DNA from: a virus
Length of the DNA: 25,334 bases
IMG/VR virus record: IMGVR_UViG_3300029268_000123
Location: 1-25,334 of that record
Direction: 5' to 3' (one strand)
Part shown: positions 2,316 through 24,744 of the stretch, piece by piece
Layout of the letters: each line of letters begins with the position of its first letter
How positions within the stretch are numbered: position 1 is the stretch's first letter
The notes under the pieces: model-generated
The model's database searches: none
What the model was told of the DNA's origin: nothing
The model's input: only the letters and a program-made list of their open reading frames with translations
Made by a program: the position numbers and the translations under genes

Positions 2316-3245
2316 CTAGTTATCAGAGAGAAGTTCTATTGCCTTTGATTCCGGCATCCCACTGGCAACCATTTCATCAATGGACTTACGCACCTCGGGA
2401 GAGAAATCGGTTTTTGGAACACTTCCACCGGGGAACTGCATCGCATTAACCTTTTCTTGAACATTAGCACTTTTGAGAACTCTTTCCTGAATGGTCTCTG
2501 AAGGCTTAAACATGTTTTCTCGAGCAAGTTCTAGGACCGTCATCAACTCTTTACCACTTTTGTTTTGCCAATTGTAGTTGTCGTCAACGAAATCAAAGAA
2601 TACTTCTCGAACATCTTCATCTTTAAGTTCAGCATGCCTTTCAACAAAATTTTCCAATGTGCTCTTGACTTCACCGGCTAAGCGTTCCTGTTGGATAACC
2701 GCTTGGATATCCTCTTTAGTCGCCCCACCTAGTTCTTTCAAGCGTTCTTTGTCGGCTTTCAAAGCTTCATCTTCAATATCTTCTCCTTCCTTCTTGGTCT
2801 CTACTCCGCCATTATTCAGCGGATTGATAATTTTGTCGGTTCCGTTAAGATTTTTTAATTGGCCTTTTGCCTTCTTAATTTCATCCGACAATTGTTGCTT
2901 CTGCTCGGGAGTCGTAGCGAGTTTGCGTCTTTTGACTAAATCAAGGAGAGCAATTCGTTTCTCGAAAGATTCATCAGATTCGAATTTTCCTTTATTTGGT
3001 ACTCGGAACTCATACTCACCGTCTTCCTTTTTTGCTTCTTCAACTGGAGGTTTTGCTGGTTCCCCCTCCTTCGGTGTTTCAGGAGTCTCCTCCTTATTCT
3101 CCTCCGGCTTGGCTGGCTCTTCCGATTTATTAGGAGAAGCCAACTCTTTTCCAGCTTTGACCGCAGAGATTGATTCTTCGAGTTCTTTATCGAGCTCGGA
3201 TTCGTCATCTACTGGTGTCTCTATTTTTTCTTTTTCTGGGTCCAT
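2316..3245 (-). CDS. Putative capsid scaffolding protein (309 aa)
   Basis: A highly charged protein. Residues 1-80 are low-complexity acidic and Lys/Pro-rich, residues 80-150 are basic and helical, and the rest is helical, ending PESKAIELLSDN. There is no visible enzymatic motif. Highly charged helical proteins encoded just upstream of decoration and capsid genes are the usual scaffolding (capsid assembly) proteins of tailed phages. Its acidic N-terminus and mobile linker fit that role, but no protease motif is visible, so a scaffold-protease fusion is not indicated. Its start lies immediately behind one copy of a 40-bp repeated leader (3243-3282) and the promoter at 3294-3322. Confidence 0.7.
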   Translation of the reverse strand: MDPEKEKIETPVDDESELDKELEESISAVKAGKELASPNKSEEPAKPEENKEETPETPKEGEPAKPPVEEAKKEDGEYEFRVPNKGKFESDESFEKRIALLDLVKRRKLATTPEQKQQLSDEIKKAKGQLKNLNGTDKIINPLNNGGVETKKEGEDIEDEALKADKERLKELGGATKEDIQAVIQQERLAGEVKSTLENFVERHAELKDEDVREVFFDFVDDNYNWQNKSGKELMTVLELARENMFKPSETIQERVLKSANVQEKVNAMQFPGGSVPKTDFSPEVRKSIDEMVASGMPESKAIELLSDN

Positions 3246-3282
3246 ATTTTTCCTACCCGTATCGTGGGTGGTGACGATGGTT
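3243..3282 (-). repeat. 40-bp leader repeat, copy 1 (upstream of scaffold gene)
   Basis: This 40-bp block is identical to 3851-3890. On the minus strand it ends exactly with the ATG of the gene it precedes. It can fold in two exclusive ways: ATCGT with ACGAT (loop CACCACCC) or ACCC with GGGT (loop ACGATAC). TAGGAAAAAT sits directly before the ATG, with only a weak ribosome-binding match. Confidence 0.85.
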
Positions 3283-3325: not shown

Positions 3326-3853
3326 CTATCGGTCGGAAAACTTAACAAACGGCACAATTCTTTTCAATTTTAATTTAAGGGTATCTAAATTAACGGAGCC
3401 TTCTGTTAAAAATGAAATAGCGTGCTTCTGGAAATCGCCTTCCGTTGAATTGTTGTGTTCACCAACAGTAGACGAATACTTTATCGGGATAATAACAAGA
3501 TAAACTTCTTTGTCTCTCGCTTTGTAGAAGAGGATATTATCTTTCGGATTAAAGACCTTGTTGAAAACTTCCAACAAATCTTCACGGTCAACGGCATATC
3601 CACAGGATGCTTCAAATGACGATGGAGCTTTACCTCCAAAGAAATAATCAGCTTCAGACACCTCTTCGCCAATGGTATTCTTTAAAACAACCTTCTTGAC
3701 TGGCTTAGCTGCTGGAAGAGGATTGTTTTCTGGGGCTACTGGTGGAAGTCCGGTAATCGGATTCACTACCGGTGGGGCTGGCGGAGTCTGCTTAGGCTCC
3801 TTATTAGTAGTGGTATTCTTGTTGCCTTTTTTAATTGTTTTTTCTTTTGCCAT
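3326..3853 (-). CDS. Hypothetical virion-module protein with Pro/Lys-rich N-terminus (175 aa)
   Basis: Residues 1-55 are a low-complexity tail rich in K, T, N, P and A (AKEKTIKKGNKNTTTNKEP, then PPAPPVVNPITGLPPVAPEN), likely disordered. Residues about 56-175 look like a compact alpha/beta domain with ADYFFGGKAPSSF, ILFYKARDKEVYLVIIPIKY and a basic end. No family is recognised. It sits between a 156-residue unknown protein and the scaffold gene, and its start is preceded by the second copy of the 40-bp leader repeat. Its 3' end carries a perfect ACGGCACAA (3349-3357) next to the downstream promoter. A head-completion or minor structural role is a guess from position only. Confidence 0.8.
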   Translation of the reverse strand: MAKEKTIKKGNKNTTTNKEPKQTPPAPPVVNPITGLPPVAPENNPLPAAKPVKKVVLKNTIGEEVSEADYFFGGKAPSSFEASCGYAVDREDLLEVFNKVFNPKDNILFYKARDKEVYLVIIPIKYSSTVGEHNNSTEGDFQKHAISFLTEGSVNLDTLKLKLKRIVPFVKFSDR

Positions 3854-3890
3854 ATTTTTCCTACCCGTATCGTGGGTGGTGACGATGGTT
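3851..3890 (-). repeat. 40-bp leader repeat, copy 2 (upstream of the 175-aa gene)
   Basis: Identical over 40 bp to 3243-3282, and likewise ending at the ATG of the gene it precedes. It fills the whole gap between this ATG and the TAA stop of the preceding gene (3889-3891), overlapping that stop by two bases. No good promoter is seen upstream of this copy. Confidence 0.85.
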
Positions 3891-10498: not shown

Positions 10499-10519
10499 AC
10501 ATTTTATGTTGCTAGTAAT

Positions 10520-10548
10520 AACATAACAGTAACATAAGATGTTGTTAA
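10520..10548 (-). promoter_or_regulatory. Candidate leftward promoter of the RHH genes
   Basis: Read on the minus strand: TTAACA (10543-10548), a 17-bp spacer and TATGTT (10520-10525). The -10 falls in a direct repeat (TTATGTTACTG then TTATGTTATTAC). Just upstream lies the first operator pair (10570-10597). The match is moderate. Confidence 0.4.
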
Positions 10549-10675
10549 AATGAAGTGGATAACCTAAAAACGGCACAACCCCAAATACTTGTGCCGTGGA
10601 TTTTAACCTTATTCTTGAACCTACAATCACTAAAACGGCACAACGGCACAAGTTTCAGGAAACCCCATAGGGCGG

Positions 10676-10708
10676 TATATATGTATGTACTGGATATATA
10701 CATATATA
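10676..10708. repeat. AT-rich inverted repeat
   Basis: TATATATGTAT (10676-10686) and ATACATATATA (10698-10708) are exact reverse complements with an 11-bp loop. The stretch is nearly pure A/T and alternating, so it should melt easily. This would suit a duplex-unwinding element or promoter region. No function is proven. Confidence 0.7.
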
Positions 10709-10737
10709 TTACCCTTACTGACTCTTTGAAAAAATAG

Positions 10738-10803
10738 ATAGTTATGCCGTAAAATATGTCAAGTATGGCTAAGAATAAGGTTTTTGTAACACGGCATAAC
10801 TAT
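10738..10803. repeat. 13-bp inverted repeat, variant of the operator
   Basis: ATAGTTATGCCGT (10738-10750) and ACGGCATAACTAT (10791-10803) are exact reverse complements separated by 40 bp. The half-site differs from TTGTGCCGT at the third base (TTATGCCGT) and carries extra flanking identity. The spacing is about four helical turns between inner edges, which allows looped or cooperative binding. Confidence 0.85.
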
Positions 10804-10939
10804 TTCTTGTGCCGTCTTGTGCCGTGGAGTTGTTGTGGTTAAGCCATATAATCACGGCACAAGTATTATAACACGAAGGGGAGGTGGGTTAGTTCGCTTT
10901 GCTCACAGTCTAAATAAAATTTGTCCAACCACCCTTTTC

Positions 10940-17274: not shown

Positions 17275-17916
17275 ATGGGACTAGAAACTAGACAAGAGGG
17301 CAAATTCATAACTATATTGGGCGGAAAATTTTGTATCCGTGTTCCGCAAGGAACGGAAGGTGCAGTAGAGCGAGTGAACAAGTTGGGTAAAACTGTTTAC
17401 GAAAAATTTTATGAGAAATTCACTGGTCGCCTCGTTAGTATCAAAGTAACGGACGGGACATACGGCAAGAGTTGGAACTTTGGTTTCAAAGATAGCGAAG
17501 AAGTTTATACATTGCAGTTGAGTTATAGCAATTCATTTGCCACCGCTTTCTTGAAGATGTTGCCGAACATTGATTTGGATAAAGAGATGACTGTCTCCCC
17601 TTCTGTTAAAGAAGTGGACGGCAAGAACAAAAGCTCTCTGTTCGTCAATCAAGACGGCCAGCCAATCAAGCACGCTTACACTATGGCTGAACCGAACGGC
17701 TTGCCTCAAATGGAGCAAATTACGATTAAGGGTGAATTAGTTTGGGACGATACAAAACGCTTGATATTCTTACAGGAAATGGTGGACACGAAGATTATTC
17801 CAAAACTCCACACCGCCACAGCCGAAGCTGGAATTGTCGCTAGTGCAGGATTAGAAGGAGAAACTGTCCTAGATGATAATGGCGAAGATATAGATGCCGA
17901 GGATGTGCCATTTTAA
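17275..17916 (+). CDS. ssb: Single-stranded DNA-binding protein
   Basis: A 213-residue protein starting MGLETRQEGKFITILGGKFC. Beta-strand rich N-terminal two thirds (e.g. GRLVSIKVTDGTYGKSWNFG, then VYTLQLSYSNSFATAFLKML) with an OB-fold feel, a linker, and an acidic tail ending DAEDVPF. The acidic end with a terminal Pro-Phe is the hallmark SSB C-terminus that recruits replication proteins. It lies between the two endonuclease VII-like genes and before the primase-helicase. The call comes from the tail and neighbours; the N-terminal fold is not certain by eye. Length is greater than a typical bacterial SSB but usual for phage versions. Confidence 0.75.
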   Translation: MGLETRQEGKFITILGGKFCIRVPQGTEGAVERVNKLGKTVYEKFYEKFTGRLVSIKVTDGTYGKSWNFGFKDSEEVYTLQLSYSNSFATAFLKMLPNIDLDKEMTVSPSVKEVDGKNKSSLFVNQDGQPIKHAYTMAEPNGLPQMEQITIKGELVWDDTKRLIFLQEMVDTKIIPKLHTATAEAGIVASAGLEGETVLDDNGEDIDAEDVPF

Positions 17917-17926
17917 AGAGAGCTAA

Positions 17927-18058
17927 AAATGCAACAATCAAATGCAACACAATCAACAAAATAATATCAGTAGCAAAATGAAGACAGTCAGACCTTGGGG
18001 GTTTAGTTGCATTTACCCTCGCACAGGCTCTGGCTGTTTTCATTTTGCTACTGATATT
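17927..18058 (+). ncRNA. Long 30-bp hairpin with alternative pairing
   Basis: Left arm 17963-17992 and right arm 18029-18058 pair over 30 positions, 28 Watson-Crick and two G-U in the plus-strand RNA, so the RNA pairs better than the DNA. Pairing continues weakly for several more positions inward. The 36-nt loop contains GTTGCATTT (18006-18014), complementary to two upstream copies of AAATGCAAC (17927-17935 and 17940-17948). No T-run follows, so it is not a normal terminator. The G-U pairs favour selection on RNA. It lies between the SSB-like gene and the next nuclease gene, in an otherwise empty 159 bp. Confidence 0.7.
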
Positions 18059-18075
18059 TGAGTTGGTATATTTCT

Positions 18076-18615
18076 ATGAAAAAAAACGCAACGCCATTTT
18101 TAAATATCCCTACCAAACTTAACGACTATGTTCGCTATGGTAAAAAGTGGCGGGAAAAAAATCTCGATAAGCTTAAAGCCCAGCGACAGAGATACCAGAC
18201 TAAACACAGGAAAGAACTTAACGATAAACTAAAGATTTGGCAAAAAGAAAACCCCGAAAGAATTATAAAATATCGGAAATCCTATGAAGAAAATAATCCA
18301 GAAAAGTTAGAATTAAAAAATTTTAGAACAAAAGCATATTTTTTGAGGAAGATTGATTTGTCTTTTGATGAATTCAAAACCCTCTTAAAAAAACAAAAAG
18401 GACTTTGTGCTATTTGTACTAAGCCGGAAACTTCCAAACACCAGAGCGGAAAACAACGACTTCTTTCAATAGACCATTGCCATACAACAAACAAGGTTCG
18501 GGGTTTGTTATGCAAAAAGTGTAACAGTGCCATTGGCTTTTTTGAAGACAACCCTGTCTTAGTAAAGAAAGCTTATGATTATTTAATAAAAACCAAAAAT
18601 GAAAACAAAGCATAA
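18076..18615 (+). CDS. Endonuclease VII-like HNH nuclease 2
   Basis: 179 residues from the ATG at 18076 (MKKNATPFLNIPTKLNDYVR); a TTG at 18058 lies on the hairpin arm and is less likely. Basic N-terminal helices (KKWREKNLDKLKAQRQRYQT) precede an endonuclease VII domain: CAIC, then LLSIDHCHTTNKVRGLLC, KKC and NSAIGFFEDNP. The DHCH core is intact. The organisation matches nuclease 1 (16794-17252) so the two look like paralogues, although identity is modest. It overlaps the start of the primase gene by 17 bp and may be a mobile homing nuclease or a recombination enzyme. Confidence 0.85.
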   Translation: MKKNATPFLNIPTKLNDYVRYGKKWREKNLDKLKAQRQRYQTKHRKELNDKLKIWQKENPERIIKYRKSYEENNPEKLELKNFRTKAYFLRKIDLSFDEFKTLLKKQKGLCAICTKPETSKHQSGKQRLLSIDHCHTTNKVRGLLCKKCNSAIGFFEDNPVLVKKAYDYLIKTKNENKA

Positions 18616-20977
18616 ACCATTTTTGGAATTTTTTCCAAATCACTGTTACCGATATATTGACCAGACGGGAGCGGGAAGACCGCCTGTTTCCTCTACTGAA
18701 AAACGAGATGACCTCAATATCCAAGGCTATGAGGCGTATTTTACCGTGAATGGATTTAAGAACGCCCCGAACGCCCAGAAAGAAAACTGCTCATCACTCA
18801 ATGCTTTCTTTGTGGACATTGACGGACGAAAAGATTTGGAAGAACTGGAAGAAATCAAGAAGAAGCTTGACCCGACTTTTATATTAGAAACGAAGAACGG
18901 CTACCACCTTTATTGGTGCTTAGACGAGTCGATTTACAAAGACGAAGTATCTAAAGAAGAATGGGAACTGGCAGTGGTTCGGTGGGAGAAGATTGAACAA
19001 AGTATCGTTACCGCCCTGAAAGCTGACCCCGCCGTCAAAGACCTGACCAGAATTCTAAGACAGCCGAATACTTTTTATTGGAAGAAATCCGGCGGAGCGT
19101 GGATTGAGGGAACTGATGATGTTTTCAAAATTGTTGGACGATATAAAGAAGAAGCGAACCGCTACACAATGGAGCAGGTAGAAGAGGTCTTTCCAGTTGT
19201 GGAACAGACTCTGACTTTCTCCAATGTCGCCAATCCGTCTAGTGAGAAGGCCAAGAAGATGAGTGAAGCGGAAAAGCGGAATTTCTTTGAGCGGGTGAAC
19301 GAAGCCTATCCAATGGAGGAGCGGGAGAGCTTTAAACGGCTCATTTCGGGGAAAGAGGGCACATTACCCGCCTCGGGTCTTAGAAACCACGCCTTGCTCA
19401 TCACAGGGACTCTGGCACGGCAAGCAGGGTGGACAAAGGATAAGTTTTTAGCTCATATCAACAAGGTGGGGTGGCACGGCATAGAGAAGGAGCGGGGCGG
19501 GGCTCAAGAAATAATGAACACAATCAACAGTGCCTTCTCTGGTGGCTACACCTATTCCTATAAAAACGAAATCATTGCTCACAATATGAGCGAGGAGGAG
19601 CAGATGAAAATTCAAGACGCTTACACGGGAGTTTTGAAGTCCCGCCGAGAAGCCGACAAGGTGCGATTTTCCAATTACGAACGGGAGATTTTGGCTCAAC
19701 ATCCCCACCTAAAAAAGAACGAAATCGGAATTGTCTTTGACTACAAGGACGGGGTGTATGAAATGCTGACTGACCAACAGGTATCGGACATTGTTTTGAA
19801 TGGCCTTTACGAAGATATGTTGTGGGGCTATCGGACGAAGAAAAATGTCTCTGACAAAGTAGCCTGTCTGATATCAATTATTCCCAGCCTTGAAATATCG
19901 GACGACCACGGTTTTTGGATAAATGTAAAGAACGGTCTATTGAACATTTATACCCGAGAATTGCGACCACACACACCAATGTTTGTGTCCTTAATCCAAT
20001 ATCCTGTCGTTTATGACCCGAAGGCGACCTGTCCGACTTGGGATATGTGTATTCACGATTGGATGGCCGGGCCGGAATGTGAAGAAAAAATTACTTTGCT
20101 GAAACAATACTGCGGATACATTTTGTCGTCTTCTATGCACTACGACCGAGCTCTGTTTATGGTTGGTGACGGCGGAAACGGCAAGAGCACTTTCATTGAT
20201 ACCATTGCAATGGTTGTTGGCACGCAAGCCACTTCCCATATCGACCTCGAAGCCCTATATGGCCAATTTGGTATGCAGGGACTCGTGGGGAAGAGATTGA
20301 ACATCATTGAAGAGGTGGCTGGTAATTACTACCAGAGCAACAAATTAAAAAAGCTTATTTCTGGCGAAGAAGTGACGATAGACATAAAATATAAGCCTCA
20401 ATTTACTTTCCGACCGCAAGCGAAATTCGTGTTCTCGGTGAATATGTTCCCGAGGGTTGATGACACTTCTACTGCTACCGAACGCCGAATTTGTGCGGTG
20501 ACTTTCCGCAACAATTATCGTAAAAATCCGAACTTCCAATTACGGTCTAGCCGTGGTTTGCTCGCTAAAGAACTCTCCGGAATTCTGAACTGGATGTTGG
20601 ACGGAGCGTGCGATTTGGCCGAGAAGAAAAATTTCATCATCACCGAAGAGCAGACTCAAATGCTGAACGAGTACCGCCAAGAAAATTCCTCGGTGGAAGG
20701 TTTCATCTCGGAGTGTATTTTACTTGACCCAGAGGAGTCGGTAGATGTTCCAACTCTTTACGCTGAATATAAAAAATGGAGTCAATCGGACGGAGGGAGA
20801 AAGATTAAAGCTAACATCACTTTCACTAAAGAGGTAAAAACCTACGGAGCTAAAAATGACCGCTTTGGTTTCAGGCCCCGAGACCACGGAAGTGATGAGG
20901 CGAAATTTATTGGTATTAGGTTGAATCCGTTGTGGACAAAACAAAGCAATCCAAATGGCGGGTTCGGTAACTTTTAA
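18599..20977 (+). CDS. Primase-helicase (AEP-type primase + SF3 helicase)
   Basis: 792 residues. The N-terminal part has the archaeo-eukaryotic primase motifs: FFVDIDG (Asp73, Asp75), TKNGYHLYWC (His103) and KADPAVKDLTRILRQPNT (Asp148, Arg151). This indicates a primase or primase-polymerase active site. A linker leads to a D5-like region and the SF3 helicase: Walker A GDGGNGKST (residues 523-531), acidic Walker B in RLNIIEEV (Glu571/572), sensor-type VFSVNMFP (Asn615) and ERR (Arg629/630). Such enzymes prime and unwind phage DNA at the origin. A C-terminal winged-helix-like region follows (about residues 690-790). The gene starts inside the end of nuclease 2. Confidence 0.9.
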   Translation: MKTKHKPFLEFFPNHCYRYIDQTGAGRPPVSSTEKRDDLNIQGYEAYFTVNGFKNAPNAQKENCSSLNAFFVDIDGRKDLEELEEIKKKLDPTFILETKNGYHLYWCLDESIYKDEVSKEEWELAVVRWEKIEQSIVTALKADPAVKDLTRILRQPNTFYWKKSGGAWIEGTDDVFKIVGRYKEEANRYTMEQVEEVFPVVEQTLTFSNVANPSSEKAKKMSEAEKRNFFERVNEAYPMEERESFKRLISGKEGTLPASGLRNHALLITGTLARQAGWTKDKFLAHINKVGWHGIEKERGGAQEIMNTINSAFSGGYTYSYKNEIIAHNMSEEEQMKIQDAYTGVLKSRREADKVRFSNYEREILAQHPHLKKNEIGIVFDYKDGVYEMLTDQQVSDIVLNGLYEDMLWGYRTKKNVSDKVACLISIIPSLEISDDHGFWINVKNGLLNIYTRELRPHTPMFVSLIQYPVVYDPKATCPTWDMCIHDWMAGPECEEKITLLKQYCGYILSSSMHYDRALFMVGDGGNGKSTFIDTIAMVVGTQATSHIDLEALYGQFGMQGLVGKRLNIIEEVAGNYYQSNKLKKLISGEEVTIDIKYKPQFTFRPQAKFVFSVNMFPRVDDTSTATERRICAVTFRNNYRKNPNFQLRSSRGLLAKELSGILNWMLDGACDLAEKKNFIITEEQTQMLNEYRQENSSVEGFISECILLDPEESVDVPTLYAEYKKWSQSDGGRKIKANITFTKEVKTYGAKNDRFGFRPRDHGSDEAKFIGIRLNPLWTKQSNPNGGFGNF

Positions 20978-24281: not shown

Positions 24282-24446
24282 ATGAAGCCAAGGAAAACAG
24301 AACCATTCGTAAGAATCAACTCAAGGGTTAGGGCTGACCAATTGAAGTTTGTGAAAACTTACGCAAAAGCCAGAAAGATTGGAGAAGGACAAGCCCATCG
24401 AGATATCTTAGATTCATTTATATTAAGCATAAAACCAAAGAAATAA
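24282..24446 (+). CDS. RHH-like regulator (54 aa)
   Basis: MKPRKTEPFVRINSRVRADQ, then LKFVKTYAKARKIGEGQAHR and ILDSFILSIKPKK. The layout is strand (FVRINSRV), helix (RADQLKFVKTYAKA), turn, helix (AHRDILDSFILSI), which is the RHH fold of Arc-like proteins. It is the third RHH-type protein of the window and could bind the GACACCG sites, but that is a guess. It begins 53 bp after the preceding stop and ends 1 bp before the next start. Confidence 0.65.
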   Translation: MKPRKTEPFVRINSRVRADQLKFVKTYAKARKIGEGQAHRDILDSFILSIKPKK

Positions 24447-24447
24447 A

Positions 24448-24744
24448 ATGCAACAGAACACATACGAGGAGTACGCCATCATTGATGCCAAGATTGCCGA
24501 GTTAGAGGCTCAAAAAGCCCCGCTCCGGGTAAAGATTTTGGAAGAGATGGTTGATAGAGGAGAAAAAAAGGTCGAAACCCCATTTGGAAGTTTCTCGGTC
24601 TCACCACGCAAGACTTGGACCTATACGGAAAAAGTCAGTGAAGCAGAAGAAAAATTCAAAGCATTAAAAGCCAAGGAAGAATCTACCGGTGACGCAACAT
24701 TCACCGAGACACCTTCCCTTCGATTTACTCAAGTCAAATTATAA
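24448..24744 (+). CDS. Conserved phage coiled-coil protein (98 aa)
   Basis: A 98-residue protein starting MQQNTYEEYAIIDAKIAELE. It has AQKAPLRVKILEEMVDRGEK, ETPFGSFSVSPRKTWTYTEK and a helix, ending ATFTETPSLRFTQVKL. N-terminal coiled coil, then a short beta hairpin (GSFSV...TWTY), then a helix. The order YEEYAxxDAxIxxLExxKxxLR...KTWTY...STGxATxTExxSLRF recurs in many phages. Function is unknown; partly similar to siphovirus Gp157-type proteins in feel, not in proven homology. Confidence 0.75.
   Translation: MQQNTYEEYAIIDAKIAELEAQKAPLRVKILEEMVDRGEKKVETPFGSFSVSPRKTWTYTEKVSEAEEKFKALKAKEESTGDATFTETPSLRFTQVKL

Follow-up and report, generated by a model that had tools for sequence, protein, structure and literature searches.

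A long, near-perfect hairpin lies between two genes of an uncultured phage, and its function is the question addressed here. The stretch of DNA analyzed, called the window, is a 25,334-nt contig from a virus record. Its terminase and portal genes are on the minus strand. The plus strand carries a putative single-stranded-DNA-binding protein (SSB) gene (17275-17916), the gene for an endonuclease VII-like protein, nuclease 2 (18076-18615; PF02945, E 2.9e-19), and a D5/P4-type primase-helicase gene (18599-20977; DUF5906 and D5_N; phrog_864, DNA primase). SSB is only the likely name of the first gene. Its product has an SSB-like acidic C-terminal tail terminating in VPF, and the gene is syntenic in relatives. 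A Pfam search with this protein gave zero matches and a PHROG search gave one match, to a family with no assigned function.

Two other features of the window were recorded. An identical 25-nt sequence, CACCCACGATACGGGTAGGAAAAAT, is found directly 5' of the ATG of two minus-strand genes (3246-3270 for gene 2316-3245 and 3854-3878 for gene 3326-3853), and it may serve both genes as a promoter or translation signal. Three moderate hairpins are clustered at 10499-10805, in or near the gap between divergent gene blocks, making this region a candidate origin or promoter region.

The hairpin in the window and in related phages

The window hairpin is real and occupies 17963-18058 (+), in the gap that separates nuclease 2 from the putative SSB gene. 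Its outer stem pairs 17963-17992 with 18029-18058 over 30 bp. Two G.U pairs are the only exceptions to Watson-Crick pairing in this stem, just as an earlier note on this DNA had described. An apical extension, which contains one C.C mismatch and a third G.U pair, extends the 5' arm to 17997 and begins the 3' arm at 18024 (17963-17997 and 18024-18058, both +), as seen from the fold and covariation. Hairpin and leader together (17927-18058) have a predicted fold of -59.8 kcal/mol, compared with -23.3 ± 3.2 kcal/mol for 200 dinucleotide shuffles (z -11.4), none of which was equally good. When the inverted repeats of the window were ranked, the hairpin scored 29.5 and the runner-up 15.5. There is no T-run after 18058, which agrees with the earlier note, and no T-run of a consistent kind is found 3' of the hairpins in relatives. 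An intrinsic terminator or attenuator, which calls for a G+C-rich hairpin followed by a T-run, was therefore rejected.

Relatives were gathered by protein searches with the SSB and the primase, using both single queries and profiles. This yielded ~40 non-redundant loci from one uncultured phage family, in which primase identity to the window protein is 58-75%. In 34 loci, or 32 once near copies are dropped, the interval from the SSB gene to the primase gene contains a hairpin whose arms measure 18-35 bp. L013 is the single locus with a complete interval and no hairpin; the others are either truncated or distant. The genes in this interval vary among relatives, yet the position of the hairpin, 5' of the primase or of an inserted nuclease, is retained. 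In most relatives the leader is followed immediately by the primase gene, while in the window nuclease 2 comes first and sits between the two.

The SSB-primase interval is also an insertion hot spot (L005, L006, L008, L104, L162). By eye, it contains a methyltransferase-like gene in L005, L006, L008, L104 and others; endonuclease VII genes are found there too, as well as a tRNA-like gene in L162. Two loci have a second long hairpin directly behind the first and ahead of the primase gene (L147:3859-3966 and L151:309-391).

Outside this family, a DNA search against isolated phages gave no match. The nearest SSB of an isolated phage is that of Cellulophaga phage phi46:1 (28%), and a scan of 3.5 kb covering the surroundings of this SSB gene and the DNA 3' of it found no comparable hairpin. 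Bacterial genomes contained no related prophage, with best matches of only 25-31%. The arm sequence also had one match in L003, a contig with no relation to the family, and this was attributed to chance.

Pairing in the stem and loop and the leader reading frame

The earlier note took the G-U pairs as a sign of selection on RNA and proposed a covariation analysis across relatives. In the window clade (10 sequences), 16 of the 37 pairs of the stem and the loop/upstream helix have changed on both sides, compared with 6.9 in shuffles and 3-6 when partners were slid. None of 500 shuffles reached any of five covariation measures, although the loci share ancestry, so that this figure and those of the swap test below overstate independence and are optimistic. 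Outside the window clade, the arms are largely unalignable and pairing is equally good. When stem mismatches were scored symmetrically, there were 91 G.T and 23 A.C, with G.T favored in 32 loci and A.C in 2, pointing to the + strand, in gene sense, as the strand that would fold. This excess supports RNA without proving it, since a folded + strand of single-stranded DNA would be expected to give a weaker bias in the same direction. The strong covariation of the arms and the G.T excess thus favor the claim of selection on RNA, and they support a hairpin that is probably conserved as an RNA structure while its sequence changes.

The note also proposed that the loop can pair with two upstream copies of a short sequence. 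The apical loop contains element a' (GTTGCATTT, 18006-18014, +), which is antisense to the leader start region. Its exact complement, element a (AAATGCAAC), is present upstream at 17927-17935 (+), where it opens an 11-codon ORF (17929-17964), and at 17940-17948 (+), where it overlaps the ATG of the leader ORF (17942). This 9-mer has four copies in 25 kb compared with 0.44 expected. Complementarity with the second upstream copy is kept across relatives, while the sequences themselves differ: the two paired sequences are, for example, GTTACATTT/AAATGTAAC in L004 and L103, TTAGCATTT/AAATGCTAA in L143 and L155, TTCTACATTATC/GATAATGTAGAA in L005, TTTGCGGGTTAT/ATAACCCGCAAA in L150, TTGTCGAAG/CTTCGACAA in L120 and GTAGCATGTT/AACATGCTAC in L162.

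In a swap test, in which loops were exchanged between upstream regions, own pairs scored 20.1 and swapped pairs 14.6; the best permutation reached 16.8, and none of 20,000 was as good as the own pairs. On the primase tree, 17 pairing classes need 18 changes, and the a:a' pairing has been rewritten at least 16 times with complementarity kept. The swap test and these many rewritings uphold the proposed loop pairing. The same swap test with the downstream flank showed no significant complementarity to the loop. Eight-nucleotide loop matches are present at the primase start in L021, L113, L143 and L155, but pairing with the primase start was rejected as a general rule since the downstream signal is not significant overall. 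The fourth AAATGCAAC of the window (24446-24454) lies over the start codon of an ORF (24448-24744), and the loop could pair there. Orthologues of this ORF in relatives do not track their own loops, and this candidate trans target is probably due to chance.

In seven loci (L006, L014, L105, L106, L115, L116, L139), the a:a' match, by eye, is divided into two colinear segments. One segment is in the apical loop and the other in an internal loop, and the start codon is inside or adjoins one of them. Element a usually holds or adjoins the AUG. In some loci without an ATG in the element, such as L147, L150 and L151, it is located a few codons inside the ORF.

A feature overlooked in the earlier note is the leader ORF itself (17942-18061, +). 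It has 39 codons (MQHNQQNNISSKMKTVRPWGFSCIYPRTGSGCFHFATDI) and spans the whole hairpin, and its terminal TGA is separated from the ATG of nuclease 2 (18076) by 14 nt. A frame that begins with an ATG ~20-36 nt 5' of the stem and has no stop codon over at least 90% of the hairpin length was found in 21 of 32 loci, compared with 5.6 expected from shuffles that preserve stem pairing and the upstream sequence. After grouping by eye into eleven subclades, nine had at least one open-leader member. The leader stop is at or over the next start codon in several relatives. In loci with the primase as the very next gene, its distance to the primase ATG is -1 (ATGA) in L004, L103, L143 and L150, -4 in L105, -5 in L154, -7 in L009 and +6 in L010 and L162; it is farther elsewhere. 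Frameshifting from the leader into the primase was rejected because their relative frames vary between loci.

Substitutions in the leader are synonymous as often as chance predicts, which gives no sign of purifying selection on the peptide. A conserved leader peptide was ruled out, as the changes fall as if random. The comparison of sequences therefore suggests that the conserved feature is a translatable frame and not a peptide, and it is the openness of this frame that argues for coding by the leader. Not every locus has the leader ORF: the ATG in element a is followed directly by TAG (start-stop) throughout one subclade (L005, L008, L022, L104, L119), and the upstream element a was not found in L012, L021 and L113. 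That no nearby gene explains the hairpin, as had been stated in the earlier note, is now doubtful, because the hairpin is inside the leader ORF and its SSB-primase position is kept across the family.

A proposed self-antisense leader and the rival readings

The reading we consider rather probable is that the element is a self-antisense leader of the phage replication operon. Pairing of a' with a would block initiation on the leader ORF. If this ORF is translationally coupled to the gene that follows, which is the primase in most loci and nuclease 2 first in the window, the block would lower the output of that gene. A translated leader would bring ribosomes to the start codon behind it. Ribosomes passing along the leader would also melt the hairpin, and in this way the element could sense its own translation.

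The a:a' contact could be made in two ways, which we rate as equally likely and propose only tentatively. It may occur in trans, with the hairpin cut from the transcript as are the P4 CI and P1 c4 RNAs, or in cis, either before the 3' arm is made or while a ribosome holds the stem open. In ~10 loci, the linker is too short to span the closed stem (2-10 nt for stems of 64-98 Å). Examples are L150 (5 nt, 25 bp), L151 (2 nt, 25 bp) and L154 (5 nt, 29 bp). Since the tip is out of reach of its own element a in many loci, pairing would have to occur before the 3' arm is made, with a stem opened by a ribosome or between molecules. For nascent RNA ending before the 3' arm, a:a' pairing was predicted in 16 of 27 loci, including the window.

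The hairpin could also be an RNase III processing site that separates the SSB and primase messages, with loop pairing being secondary. RNase III sites separate the early genes of T7, and near-perfect stems of 18-35 bp between co-directional genes would suit a nuclease of double strands; the missing T-run, which excludes a terminator, is in keeping with this. We consider a processing site unlikely as the explanation, since it would not explain the kept loop complementarity to the upstream start region or the open frame through the stem. It is, however, compatible with a self-antisense leader.

Another possibility is an element at the level of DNA, such as a replication origin or single-strand initiation site, with the + strand forming the hairpin and the repeats acting as binding sites. 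The location between two replication genes and the iteron-like inverted repeats would fit this, and the G.T over A.C excess could arise in single-stranded DNA of the + strand. However, the repeat has been rewritten at least 16 times among phages whose primases share 58-75% identity with the window primase, which is ill-suited to the sites of a conserved protein. The favored strand is the coding strand, and the leader ORF through the hairpin would have no role. This makes a DNA element improbable.

We likewise give little credence to a switch acting purely in cis with no leader translation, in which an upstream strand competes with the hairpin to set pausing, termination or access to the start codon. 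In L005, L008, L022, L104, L119, L021 and L113, a further upstream strand pairs with the 5' arm, which gives true competing hairpins, and in the window the nascent RNA is predicted to fold with a paired to a'. This further strand is confined to one subclade, where the leader may, from the predicted folds, be a two-state device too. At equilibrium, the complete stem, with energies mostly between -30 and -68 kcal/mol, would win and the alternative would be short-lived; the leader ORF would also be unexplained.

The suggestion in the earlier note of a mobile-element relic tied to nuclease 2 is far-fetched, and so is a part in the regulation of this nuclease. In favor of such a link, nuclease 2 begins 14 nt behind the leader in the window, and two relatives have nuclease ORFs (L006:5242-5889 and L116:5024-5530) that form an in-frame fusion with the leader ORF and start inside element a. 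Most relatives, however, lack the nuclease at this place and have the hairpin regardless, and of 47 homologues of the nuclease in other places, not one is preceded by a comparable hairpin. Nuclease 2 therefore appears to be incidental to the hairpin.

Taken as a self-antisense leader, the element appears to be a so far undescribed RNA brake that acts on replication genes of phages. A further and more doubtful step would be to see it as a self-destroying inhibitor, a new class of phage regulatory RNA with an antisense hairpin encoded inside the ORF that it controls. Translation would then destroy the inhibitor and the inhibitor would stop translation, and fast diversification of the recognition sequence could allow each phage to gauge its own copy number without cross-talk at co-infection. 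If the brake is real, a core replication gene in an uncultured phage family that seems to lack integrase genes is controlled by a kind of RNA circuit described until now mostly in temperate phages and plasmids. The rapid turnover of a and a' would then document, in nature, selection for self-recognition. Ready-made variants are available in the compensated changes, and exchanging loops between relatives gives direct, testable predictions.

Comparison with known systems

Rfam contained no family that matched at the gathering score. In searches with E up to 1, and up to 10 on 17900-18100, the sub-threshold matches were weak and mostly to eukaryotic microRNA precursors, which are generic long hairpins. 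In the limited set of open papers searched, no earlier description of such an element was found.

Two known elements are similar in location. The STAXI motif is a pseudoknot-structured element near SSB genes that is small, is found as tandem repeats and often has UUCG loops (PMC2864571). Both are structured elements close to an SSB gene, but the hairpin described here is not a small tandem pseudoknot and did not match the STAXI Rfam model. RNA hairpins are also found ahead of the phage homing endonuclease genes I-TevI, segB, mobE and seg43, where they sequester or abut the ribosome binding site of the nuclease (PMC2988022). The window likewise has a stable hairpin 5' of a phage nuclease gene. 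Here, however, the hairpin belongs to the primase operon, does not go with the nuclease and is kept without it.

Closer likenesses are found among systems that control replication. In plasmids R1 and ColIb-P9, a short leader ORF is coupled to the replication gene, and antisense or pseudoknot pairing is involved. References on this leader-peptide control of plasmid replication, by R1 CopA/tap-repA and in ColIb-P9 repZ, are listed in PMC10724649. The element shares with these a short leader ORF ahead of a replication gene and antisense-type pairing. Their antisense RNA comes from the opposite strand, in contrast to the same strand, inside the leader, in this family.

The P4 CI RNA is derived from a leader and pairs with leader sites upstream (seqA) and downstream (seqC) (PMC4825925). 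Control of a replication gene would be a likeness, the primase here being of the D5/P4 type, and in both cases leader RNA would pair with complementary sites in the same leader. CI is described as derived from an untranslated transcript and as causing transcription termination, whereas here a frame spans the hairpin. CI also has a downstream site; here the upstream site is strongly supported and a downstream one is not significant overall, with 8-nt matches at the primase start in four loci (L021, L113, L143 and L155).

The c4 RNA has three short stem-loops and controls an antirepressor gene. It is excised by RNase P to give a stable RNA of ~77 nt. In P1/P7, c4 is a phage RNA on the transcript of its own target (PMC5320573, PMC12197685), and both c4 and P4 CI are excised from the transcript and act in trans (PMC5320573, PMC4825925). 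As in c4 (RF01695), the element has short complementary segments in loops, on the same transcript as a target that is a translation start region, and pairing in two segments is seen in several loci. By the swap test and by the position of element a relative to the leader ATG, the loop is complementary to a putative translation start region on the same predicted transcript. The c4 covariance model (RF01695) did not match the hairpin at the gathering score, with E up to 1, or even with E up to 10 on 17900-18100. One long stem is present instead of three short stem-loops, the target is upstream and an ORF passes through the hairpin itself. The element is ahead of a replication gene instead of an antirepressor, with no sign of lysogeny genes in relatives. 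A search limited to the integrase and resolvase families PF00589 and PF00239 found none in 14 relatives of 40-46 kb, whose completeness is uncertified. Because none was found, there is no indication of a part in immunity such as c4 or CI plays. By the tests made, the element belongs to none of these systems, since it has no Rfam match, a different architecture and a different gene order, but by analogy it would act like c4, CI and the leader-peptide control of plasmids.
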